A stretch of 38,452 bases of DNA, taken from contig JAPOYE010000017.1 in the NCBI GenBank assembly GCA_026706695.1, positions 1 through 38,452 on the forward strand, written 5' to 3'. A program made the position numbers and the translations under genes. The notes beneath the pieces were generated by a model. That model was not told where the DNA came from. It made no database searches and saw nothing but the letters and a program-made list of their open reading frames with translations. This DNA comes from Candidatus Dadabacteria bacterium (GTDB taxonomy: Bacteria; Desulfobacterota_D; UBA1144; Nemesobacterales; Nemesobacteraceae). Numbering within the stretch: the first letter of the stretch is position 1; every line of letters starts with the position of its first letter. Positions 2,309-5,697 of this stretch are shown one piece after another.

Positions 2309-5005
2309 ATGAGAGCTTCCACAAAGATGGTTTCCGCGGCAAAAAACAGAAGCGGACCAATGTTTTTTATATGCGCGCTGGCATTGCTTATTTTCTTCTC
2401 CGGTACAGTTCCCCTTGGCGCGCACGAGGCTGAAGGACATGTTGAGGGCTATAATGTCGAGGAGCATCCTTACACCACGACCGCCAGCGACGTCGATCCT
2501 GCGGACAGGGAAAGCGTTTACAACTTTCTCCTGCATGTGAGGGCCCACTTTAAGGATCCTCCCAGCCTTAACATACTCACAGCACTGAAGGAGCTGTCGT
2601 CGACGGAAGGTGGGGACTGGAGAAACGACACAACTTACCTTATACGGGTGAATGATTTTATACGAGCGAATGACAGAGCCAAGGTGATTTATCACGCATA
2701 CTATCCTGTGACGCAAGACGGAAGCCTGGACGGTTCAAGCGTCGTGCGGAATCTTGTCAAGGTTGCGAACGAAAAGGAAGAAGGAGGCTGCGTTCCGTAC
2801 ACTCTTGACGGGGCGGACAGGTGGGCTTGCGCGGCTAAATTCAGGTCCGTGGGGTATAATCCCGCAACCAACGCTGTCTGGATCGTGGGTTTTCACCATG
2901 ATTTCGAAGAAGTGTCTTTCGCCAAGAACACATGTCCCTACTACGTTCCCGGGACCAGTGCCATTGACGTAAAGGATACCAAGACCCTTAAGAAGTTTGT
3001 AGACGAATTCGCGGAACACTACAGGATGCAGAGAGAAATCGTGGGCGAGGGAATTACGATTGTGCAAAGGCACTGCTGGAGAGTGCTGCCCTGGAAATAC
3101 GGTTCTATCTACCTGTTTATGGTATCTCATCCCAGCAACCGCGTGATTTTTAATGCAAATTCTCCGACGATTGAAGGCAGGAATATTTATGCTGAAGACG
3201 AAAACGGCTGCGTGGTCACGGAAGAGATAGACAGGGTAGTGGCGGGAGAAAAACAACAGTGCAAGAGTTTGGGGTACCTGAGCGAGGATGACAAGAAGGA
3301 AGCCTTTTTTGAATATCTCTGGGATGACCCGAACGTAGAGGGTGACGAAATCGACATCTATACCGAGTGTCCGAATGGTCCGCTTACCTGCACCCCGGGC
3401 AGGTCACACAAGGTGGGCTATGTTACAACAATTGAGTCTTCACATGGAGAAGGTGAGACGCGTGTCGTAGGTTCCGGATTTTATCCCGGGACGCGGGAGG
3501 ACCGGGATGATGGTGACGGGTGCGCTATTGCAGGGGCCGGGCATAAAGTTCAGGGAGCCGTACTCAATCTGTTTTTGATAATCTCCGTACTGTTTTCCGC
3601 AGTTTGGGCAGGAAACCGCTACAGGGAGAGACGGACAGTTGGAAAAAAAGAAGGAGCCGGGAGAAGCGTGTTTACAAGCCTTTTCGTGAGCGCATTAGCA
3701 TTGCTGGTTCTGTTCTCATGGGGAAGCAGCGCGGTTGCACACGAGGTGGGGGGGCATACCTATACCACTACTGCGGGAGAGGTTGACGAGGCGGACGAGG
3801 TAGACATGAAGGAATTCTTGCTGCACGCGAAGGCTCACTGGGCGGGCATTGAAACTTCCAGTGAGAACATAAAGTTCGAACAGAGCCTGACTGAGGAGGG
3901 GAGTGATTGGAATAGCGGCACCGTATACCTGATGGCGATAACTGAGGAGGGGACGATTCTTGTTCACGGGGAAGACCGGAGTGTGCAGAACGGGACATTG
4001 CTTCACTACAGGACAAACGAGTTCGGGGAACGGGAGAGCTTTCTTCACGAGGAAGTACAGGGACTTGTTGACGCGGCAAAGGGAGATGAGGAGGGGGGTT
4101 GCGTTAGATACGGTCACGAGGAAGAGGGAGAAGAGGATCATGGTATGAGGGTGGCGTGTGCGGTCAAGTTCAAACATCCCGTGTGGAACGCGAACAGCGA
4201 AAGCAACCTCATTCTGATAGCGGGATATCACCACGATCATGAGGAGCATGAAGATACGGAGATAAGTTTTGCCGGTATACAATGTCCGTACTTTGCGGAG
4301 GTAAGGAACGAATCACCTTTCTTCTTCCAGGGGATAAGCGCCAACGAGGTTGTGGACAACGAAACGCTAAAGGAGTTCGTAGACCAGTTTGCTATCCACT
4401 TTGAGGAGCAGGTGAGCTTGGCCGGGAGGGATTTGGCTGGGTTAGCCGTTATTCGTAACTGCTGGAGGGTGTTGCCGTGGAAGTATGAGGATAGCGGCAC
4501 CTACATTTTTATAATGACAGAAGACAAGCTAGTGTTTTTCAACGGGTTGGACCCCGCGCTTGAGAACGGCACTTTGAATCCGGAAGATGAAAATGGTTGC
4601 CTAATCGGGGATGAGGTGGTGAATGTGGCGCTTGAAGGTCCGGACGCGAGGCAATGCAAGGACTTGGGATTGCTGCCGGAGAGTTCCGAGGGTTTTATAG
4701 AGTATCTGTGGAACGATCCATTGAATCCGGATGACGATATAGACGTATTTACGGAGTGTCCGAACGGTCCGCGCACGTGTTCTCCCGGGACAACGCCAAA
4801 GGTGAGTTATCTTGTGTCTGTAGATTTTTTGGGACAGAAATTTATAATCGGTTCCGGGTATCATCCTAGGAGCGGTGGAGATGATGGCGGCGGGTGTGCC
4901 GTTGCGGGGAGTGGCAGCGGGGTCAAGGGGGCGGTGTTCGGTCTGTTTTTGGTGGTATCGGTATTGTTCTCAGTGGTTTTTTGGAGAAACCGTTCTGCTA
5001 GATAA
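2309..5005 (+). CDS. Exported tandem Cache-like protein; fusion of two paralogous secreted units
   Basis: The 898 residues are two homologous halves, 1-450 and about 454-898. Each half has a signal peptide (hydrophobic cores 17-32 and 456-471, both followed by AHE..GH), about 360 extracytoplasmic residues, and a C-terminal tail: Asp/Gly-rich stretch, Gly-Cys (C405, C863), hydrophobic span, then Arg/Asn. Nine cysteines match one for one between halves: 161/598, 174/617, 209/659, 256/718, 301/764, 318/783, 354/817, 361/824, 405/863. Shared blocks include CWRVLPWKY, DENGC, ECPNGP and a GFHHD/GYHHD motif. The order of strands, the GxxxxPxxxG-like segments and the ending GSGFYP/GSGYHP resemble two sCache-type ligand-binding domains per half. 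No kinase, chemotaxis or enzyme domain is attached, so function is unknown. Ribosome site AAGGAG is at 2297-2302. A possible internal start at 3668 is listed separately. Confidence 0.75.
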   Translation: MRASTKMVSAAKNRSGPMFFICALALLIFFSGTVPLGAHEAEGHVEGYNVEEHPYTTTASDVDPADRESVYNFLLHVRAHFKDPPSLNILTALKELSSTEGGDWRNDTTYLIRVNDFIRANDRAKVIYHAYYPVTQDGSLDGSSVVRNLVKVANEKEEGGCVPYTLDGADRWACAAKFRSVGYNPATNAVWIVGFHHDFEEVSFAKNTCPYYVPGTSAIDVKDTKTLKKFVDEFAEHYRMQREIVGEGITIVQRHCWRVLPWKYGSIYLFMVSHPSNRVIFNANSPTIEGRNIYAEDENGCVVTEEIDRVVAGEKQQCKSLGYLSEDDKKEAFFEYLWDDPNVEGDEIDIYTECPNGPLTCTPGRSHKVGYVTTIESSHGEGETRVVGSGFYPGTREDRDDGDGCAIAGAGHKVQGAVLNLFLIISVLFSAVWAGNRYRERRTVGKKEGAGRSVFTSLFVSALALLVLFSWGSSAVAHEVGGHTYTTTAGEVDEADEVDMKEFLLHAKAHWAGIETSSENIKFEQSLTEEGSDWNSGTVYLMAITEEGTILVHGEDRSVQNGTLLHYRTNEFGERESFLHEEVQGLVDAAKGDEEGGCVRYGHEEEGEEDHGMRVACAVKFKHPVWNANSESNLILIAGYHHDHEEHEDTEISFAGIQCPYFAEVRNESPFFFQGISANEVVDNETLKEFVDQFAIHFEEQVSLAGRDLAGLAVIRNCWRVLPWKYEDSGTYIFIMTEDKLVFFNGLDPALENGTLNPEDENGCLIGDEVVNVALEGPDARQCKDLGLLPESSEGFIEYLWNDPLNPDDDIDVFTECPNGPRTCSPGTTPKVSYLVSVDFLGQKFIIGSGYHPRSGGDDGGGCAVAGSGSGVKGAVFGLFLVVSVLFSVVFWRNRSAR
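3651..3670 (+). promoter_or_regulatory. Possible internal ribosome site and GTG restart
   Basis: Inside the large gene, AAGGAG at 3651-3656 is followed 11 bases later by an in-frame GTG at 3668 (Val454). From there the reading frame begins MFTSLFVSALALL, an ordinary signal peptide, and covers exactly the second unit. This looks like the relic, or still working, translation start of a formerly separate second gene. Confidence 0.45.
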
Positions 5006-5153: not shown

Positions 5154-5636
5154 TTACCGTTCCGTACTCTTGCCCATGTCGGCTTTCTGCCTGACCCTGC
5201 GTAATCTGGGTTCTATAATCTTGCCCCTGCTCACCGTTAAGCCGTGTTCCGACAGGCACTTCTTGGCAAGGCGGAACACTCCTTCCGTTATTTGATGTCT
5301 CAGCAGAAAGTGGCGGAACTTGCAAATAGTACTCTCGTCCGGAATTCTCTGCATTGACACGCCGGCAAAGCGGCGCATGGACTCAATGTCATAAAGGCTT
5401 TCTTCCATTGCCGGGTCTGACAGACCGTACCATTGTTGCATCAGGTAAATTCGCAGCATAACCTTGGGCGGAACAGGTCGGCGTCCCCTGCGCGACTTCG
5501 GATATTTGCTTAGTATGGGTTCAAGCAGTGGTTCCCACGGCAGGATTTTGTCCATTTTTTCAAGGAACCGCTGTCTGCGGGTTATTTTCTTTTTGTTTTT
5601 GTAGGCTAAATCAGAAAAACTGGGCTTGTTCGGCAT
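5154..5636 (-). pseudogene. Truncated IS5-family transposase
   Basis: The first ~140 residues match the N-terminal part of IS5-family DDE transposases: the basic start MPNKPSFSDLAYKNKKK, LPWEPLLEPI, RRGRRPVPPKVMLRIYLMQQWYGLSDPAMEESLYD, and PDESTICKFRHFL. In full enzymes (about 310-340 residues) this is followed by the first catalytic Asp and the rest of the RNase H-like domain. Here the reading turns into an Arg-rich tail and stops at 160 residues, so no catalytic core remains and none was found in the 148 bases beyond. I chose ATG 5636 rather than an upstream GTG at 5651 because IS5 proteins usually begin this way. No terminal inverted repeats could be paired. It cannot transpose by itself. 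Confidence 0.8.
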
Positions 5637-5697
5637 TGCCCCCGTCCTCACTTCTCCATAATACTATACCACAGCGGCTCGATTGAGATTTATCGCA

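Follow-up and report, generated by a model that had tools for sequence, protein, structure and literature searches.

A putative myxosortase-type C-terminal sorting signal in Dadabacteria, with a candidate CPBP protease and tandem precursors fused in one reading frame

The combination of a cysteine-containing C-terminal tail with a CPBP protease is a known kind of sorting system. According to PMC11980579, the MYXO-CTERM/MrtX system of Myxococcota joins a tail made of a Cys, about 11 residues, a hydrophobic span and a basic end to a CPBP protein with EExxxR and HxxxN motifs; there are dozens of exported carriers, and MYXO-CTERM proteins depend on the T2SS. The same paper reports an internal MYXO-CTERM motif in the M. 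xanthus protein MXAN_5598, which the authors ascribe to gene fusion, noting that C-terminal tags can function mid-protein. Synerg-CTERM/MrtS and JDVT-CTERM/MrtJ also pair Cys tails with CPBP proteins, and in MrtJ-JDVT the protease and its target are adjacent. The GlyGly-CTERM tail of Vibrio, which is tripartite, has several carriers and shows a T2SS link, is the partner of rhombosortase, a protease of another class, and the PEP-CTERM tail, tripartite again, is that of exosortase. We describe a tail of this architecture in Dadabacteria and, from sequence comparison, read it and a CPBP protein as a new system of the myxosortase type, set apart by its tail and by tandem pre-proproteins. The literature that we searched contained no publication pairing 'Dadabacteria' with 'CTERM'.

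The window, meaning the whole stretch of 38,452 nucleotides that was analysed, comes from a Candidatus Dadabacteria genome of the sponge type, the sponge association being deduced by us from the isolate name RHO1 and the literature. An open reading frame of this window encodes P0001, a protein of 898 residues with only four strongly hydrophobic segments, which are in order a signal peptide, a tail, a second signal peptide and a second tail. Since two Cache-type regions lie between these segments (Pfam dCache_2, 40.5 bits; sCache_2, 33.2 bits), P0001 is predicted to be a tandem pre-proprotein, in which two complete precursors, each with signal peptide, Cache domains and Cys tail, share a single reading frame. 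A full-length orthologue in a second genome, G008, is 91% identical. The parts of P0001 are as follows, a slash marking the predicted end of a signal peptide.

2309-5005, plus strand: fused tandem pre-proprotein P0001, stop codon included (Pfam dCache_2/sCache_2; orthologue in G008)
2309-2422, plus strand: signal peptide 1, residues 1-38, with a signal-peptidase-I type end, PLGA/HE (hydrophobic segment)
2423-3496, plus strand: exported Cache-type domains, copy 1, residues 39-396 (Pfam dCache_2, three stretches in P0001; copy boundaries by alignment)
3497-3628, plus strand: internal Cys sorting tail 1, residues 397-440 (profile A1, E 3.5e-22 in its own genome)
3629-3739, plus strand: basic linker and internal signal peptide 2, residues 441-477, ending AVA/H (invariant residues in doubles; dN/dS)
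3740-4873, plus strand: exported Cache-type domains, copy 2, residues 478-855 (Pfam sCache_2 at 535-623, dCache_2 at 725-809)
4874-5002, plus strand: C-terminal Cys sorting tail 2, residues 856-898 (profile A1, E 7.6e-22; doubles-free profile, 65.3 bits)

Tail 1 runs from an acidic, Gly-rich lead through GCAIAG, which contains Cys405, and a hydrophobic span to GNRYRER. Tail 2 has GGGCAVAG with Cys863, the span and RNRSAR. A preliminary description of this DNA had placed a pair of shared Gly-Cys tails at 3521-5002, and these positions are exact, running from the first base of the Cys405 codon to the last base of that for residue 898. The pair is likewise borne out: GC[AS][IVL] occurs in P0001 at residues 404 and 862 only, each time immediately before a strongly hydrophobic segment. 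The predicted structure of the protein is poor (mean pLDDT 61.4) and merely repeats the helices at 414-437, 452-470 and 873-897. Directly downstream of the gene, positions 5154-5651 on the minus strand encode what resembles an N-terminal fragment of an IS5-type transposase.

A profile built from 11 single-tail proteins, and thus free of doubles, scored the first tail of P0001 at 60.3 bits and the second at the value listed above (E 8e-17 and 2e-18, Z=15000), against a top score of 12.8 bits among 2000 shuffles of the same tails. Among the 349 ORFs of at least 50 residues in the window, P0001 alone matched. The 11 proteins are paralogues, so that this result by itself cannot tell a sorting signal from shared ancestry; the distinction comes from unrelated carriers, which we sought with two further profiles, A1 from 21 Cache tails and A2 from 22 diverse tails, taking E ≤ 0.01 as the threshold for a tail. 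The G-C pair is invariant in 21 of 21 A1 tails and the Cys in 22 of 22 A2 tails, partly by construction, the rows having been picked as matches.

In the genome of the window, A1 gave 20 matches on 17 ORFs. Fourteen of these carry a single tail, with the match ending 0-18 residues before the end of the ORF, and the remaining three are doubles. The 17 comprise 12 Cache-type ORFs, three LRR proteins or fragments (including L074 and L075), one ORF with a metzincin motif (L077) and a 54-residue remnant; the types were assigned through homology to P0001 or by reading the sequence, with Pfam in the case of L074. The motif of L077, HEIIHGLGFHS, was found by sequence reading, and a Pfam search of L077 and of a second metzincin-like tailed protein, L098, gave nothing over cut-off. 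The two proteins are encoded at positions 1048-2817 of L077, where the motif has the metzincin-like form HExxHxxGxxH, and 2-1480 of L098, where it is a close variant.

At the level of the phylum, A2 tails are present in 38 of 57 Dadabacteria, which served as the positive control, and in none of 17 genomes from a control phylum; within Dadabacteria, 0 of 14 genomes of the family f8 have them. Three genomes of other phyla (G057-G059) are excluded from all phylum counts. Outside the genus of the window, the carriers include subtilases (L103, L110), a DUF4331 protein (L104), an NHL protein (L105), a beta-helix protein (L106) and TSP3-like or thaumatin-like proteins (L100, L101, L111). The tail is therefore not confined to the Cache family, and the unrelated carriers rule out a quirk of that family. 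The Cache family itself (for instance L076, L079 and L081-L085) yields 2-22 matches to P0001 per genome, often as tandem pairs.

The preliminary description had proposed that a tail profile be searched against the same genome, and had regarded a tail limited to one family, with no matching protease, as evidence against a sorting system. The search instead found unrelated exported carriers together with one CPBP protein and one rhomboid. Neither the other carriers nor the second signal peptide behind the internal tail appeared in that description.

Its comparison with MYXO-, JDVT- and Synergist-CTERM holds for the type of tail but not for membership, as none of 11 full-length proteins passes any of these curated cut-offs; we thus regard the tail as a relative, not a member, of these groups. 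It has the layout of MYXO-CTERM, namely an invariant Cys, a span and a basic end on Sec-exported proteins, and the stretch from Cys to span is laid out as in the TraA tail shown in PMC11980579. Unlike MYXO-CTERM, its consensus is GGGCAIAG in place of the generic GCGC motif, and it belongs to another phylum. With the MYXO-CTERM model TIGR03901 (cut-off 20), full-length P0001 scores 10.6 bits and its cut-out tail 19.7; none of the ten other full-length carriers passes, two being listed at 12.6 and 14.3, and the best cut-out tails, at 19.7 and 19.9, remain below 20. The cut-offs of JDVT-CTERM (27 bits) and Synerg-CTERM (22.5 bits) are also missed, the best values among the matches listed being 16.8 and 15.5. 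At E ≤ 10, nine of the 22 A2 tails touch the JDVT model and two the Synergist model, and the best cut-out tail with the JDVT model has an E of 0.013 and 15.4 of the 27 bits. The cut-out tail of L105 passes the model GC_trans_RRR (20.0 bits, cut-off 15.85), but the full protein, at 14.4, does not.

The best candidate for the protease, as judged from sequence, is a single orthologous CPBP glutamic protease, represented in the genome of the window by its only CPBP protein, P0002. Seven of the eight best NCBIfam matches of P0002 are Mrt models, all below cut-off (bits/cut-off: Mrt_core, NF040914, 72.8/100; MrtP 78.8/250; MrtS 64.6/130; MrtC 58.5/195; MrtX 46.2/180; MrtJ 40.8/75; MrtZ 38.8/325), while its catalytic residues and genome distribution are those expected of a myxosortase. 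As in the MrtX protein, EExxxR and HxxxN are present: E150, E151, R155, F176, H180, H223 and N227 (EExxxR, FxxxH, HxxxN) are invariant in 19 orthologues. Five orthologues, P0002 and four from other genera, score 55-73 bits with Mrt_core and 45-67 bits with MrtS, their best model being MrtP or MrtS; they nevertheless fall short of MrtS and MrtJ cut-offs (130 and 75). Three paralogous CPBP proteins of the phylum have ABC_perm_CPBP as best match; with Mrt_core one of them reaches 29 bits, another 22 bits, and the third gives nothing at E ≤ 0.01. Foldseek, run on a structural model of the CPBP protein (mean pLDDT 82.6), gave no hit in the PDB at E ≤ 0.001, nor did a sequence search of solved structures at E ≤ 1.

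A profile of this orthologue (A3) detects it in 33 of 57 Dadabacteria, in one of them (G041) as a 32-residue piece at a contig end. In the genome of the window and in G011, nadE sits between the CPBP gene and a tailed gene; unlike in MrtJ-JDVT, no adjacent protease-target pair is seen. Tails and the CPBP orthologue occur together in 31 genomes, tails alone in seven, CPBP alone in two (G023 and G030) and neither in 17. In the seven, the locus is broken or missing: the contig ends within nadE in G032, G040 and G042; 272 bases upstream of nadE in G036 contain no CPBP remnant before the contig ends; and G010, G037 and G039 have only distant NadE-like matches (27-38% identity), so that the nadE locus itself appears to be missing. 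All 31 tail genomes with a readable nadE-CPBP locus thus have the CPBP gene, and no tail genome has an intact locus lacking it. In G018 and G022, which have no tails, nadE follows an unrelated gene with no CPBP gene nearby, and G016 is similar. Fisher's test, which ignores phylogeny, gives p=3e-7 for the 57 genomes and 0.07 without f8; p=0.0014 is obtained without f8 and the seven unreadable loci, an exclusion picked post hoc. The co-occurrence depends much on the one clade f8.

The T2SS secretin GspD (TIGR02517) follows the tails as well. It exceeds its curated cut-off in 32 of 57 genomes, but because G010, G012, G025 and G032 hold partial matches we counted it from 330 bits upwards (36 of 57), and at this threshold it is present in 35 of the 38 tail genomes versus 1 of the 19 others (p=8e-11, or 0.0013 without f8, phylogeny ignored). 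Two genomes of one genus differ in this respect: G019 has seven tails and a T2SS GspD, whereas G023 lacks both tails and a full T2SS-type GspD but keeps the CPBP gene, and looks as if it had lost tails and T2SS jointly.

Another reading accepts the sorting signal and assigns its cleavage to the single rhomboid of the phylum, after the example of GlyGly-CTERM, with the CPBP protein acting otherwise. A rhomboid, usually one, is present in 39 of 57 genomes, and its distribution (with tails in 36, tails only in two, rhomboid only in three, neither in 16) is similar to that of the CPBP orthologue and takes in all seven tail genomes without the latter; in G005 and G007 some 1.3 kb, including a pfk-like gene, separate it from a tailed Cache gene. 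Co-occurrence hence cannot choose between the two proteases, and it is the resemblance of P0002 to myxosortases that does most to decide. Rhomboids are found in 14 of 14 control genomes, and also in G016, where tails and the CPBP gene are absent. Rhomboids from three of the 39 genomes were scored with the rhombosortase model (TIGR03902, cut-off 84) and reached 20.8, 28.9 and 29.0 bits, two of them scoring about equally for GlpG. Furthermore, an invariant Cys marks CPBP-processed tails in PMC11980579. We regard the rhomboid as an unlikely sorting protease here. Exosortase is ruled out as the partner: PF09721 occurs in 15 of 57 Dadabacteria genomes and in 0 of 13 of the genus.

The tail could also be an uncleaved C-terminal membrane anchor, in which case the doubles would be ordinary multi-pass membrane proteins. 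A hydrophobic span followed by Arg or Lys suffices for anchoring, and cleavage of the Dadabacteria tails is itself deduced. An anchor requires no invariant Cys in a GC[AS][ILV] context, however, and leaves the co-occurrence with CPBP and the T2SS secretin unexplained; we consider this reading quite improbable.

The fused precursors are the most unusual part of the system. At least nine Cache ORFs and at least one beta-helix ORF are fused in this way. Nine double Cache ORFs from six genomes were aligned from end to end (three from the genome of the window, two from G008 and one each from G002, G009, G010 and G011). In all nine, both tail Cys are invariant, as are A38 and H39 at the end of signal peptide 1 and S470, A475, A477 and H478 of the internal signal peptide 2. 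Between the window and G008, dN/dS over the linker and signal peptide 2 is 0.08 (38 codons; seven synonymous and two non-synonymous changes), and between L006 and L028 it is 0.37 over the junction. The junction is therefore translated, and is under purifying selection. An artefactual fusion through one sequencing error is ruled out by the nine aligned ORFs in six genomes. The beta-helix protein L106, of another family and from another genome (G021), has the same layout as the Cache doubles. That the shared tails reflect common descent of one Cache family, and the double ORF a recent fusion without function, is highly improbable: the Cache proteins are indeed a paralogous family found in 13 of 60 genomes searched, all of the genus of the window (G000-G012) and none of the other 47, but LRR, subtilase, DUF4331, NHL and beta-helix proteins end in the same tail, which refutes common descent for the tail, and the fusion is retained with a conserved, selected junction and recurs in the unrelated L106.

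Inspection by eye showed a GTG 11 bases past AAGGAG or AAGGGG in P0001 and its G008 orthologue. In L015 and L004 an in-frame ATG stands behind an SD-like stretch before the second half, which might therefore also be made separately there, and in L016, L005, L006, L028 and L007 no start with a convincing ribosome site precedes signal peptide 2. This pattern suggests that the stop codon between two tandem genes was lost first and that the internal start weakened afterwards. A precedent for an internal tail, MXAN_5598, is an adhesin joined to an OM-barrel region (PMC11980579), unlike P0001 with its two whole units of signal peptide, domain and tail. Searched for polyproteins of bacteria that contain internal signal peptides, the literature gave mostly work on viruses and eukaryotes.

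We think it probable that much of Dadabacteria uses a myxosortase-type C-terminal sorting signal (Cys, membrane span, basic end) served by the nadE-linked CPBP protein and leading to a lipid anchor, T2SS export and, in the fusions, two products from one precursor. Precursors would be exported by Sec and stay anchored in the inner membrane through the span of the tail, with the basic end towards the cytoplasm. Acylation of the invariant Cys is probable, and the CPBP glutamic protease encoded beside nadE may cut just past this residue, leaving a lipid-anchored protein that the T2SS would move to the cell surface. In P0001 and the other fusions, the internal tail and the next signal peptide would form a membrane hairpin; a CPBP cut at the tail and a signal peptidase I cut at AxA/H would then release two Cache proteins. 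For this last proposal, that Dadabacteria make polyproteins of two fused precursors split by a myxosortase-like CPBP protein and signal peptidase I, we see an even balance of probability.

If the proposal is correct, the sorting system would have turned the loss of a stop codon between two tandem genes into a harmless event, or even a useful one through equal dosage, and the polyprotein layout would have arisen on two or more occasions, once among Cache and once among beta-helix proteins. The fused precursors bear on whether mid-protein sorting tails work and give two products. For the uncultured phylum this would mean a pathway of surface anchoring for which one candidate protease can be named. 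Its likely surface proteins can also be listed, among them a large Cache family that is limited to one genus among the genomes searched, sponge-type symbionts included. Cys-tail/CPBP sorting may be wider than the currently curated models suggest.

In other genera, a PMT_2/PIG-V-like glycosyltransferase gene, or PMT, GtrA and GT2 genes, are found near the CPBP gene, which may hint at a step involving a glycolipid or glycan. The positions concerned are:

L193, 3754-4878
L194, 282-1406
L197, 1498-2637
L173, 3888-6400
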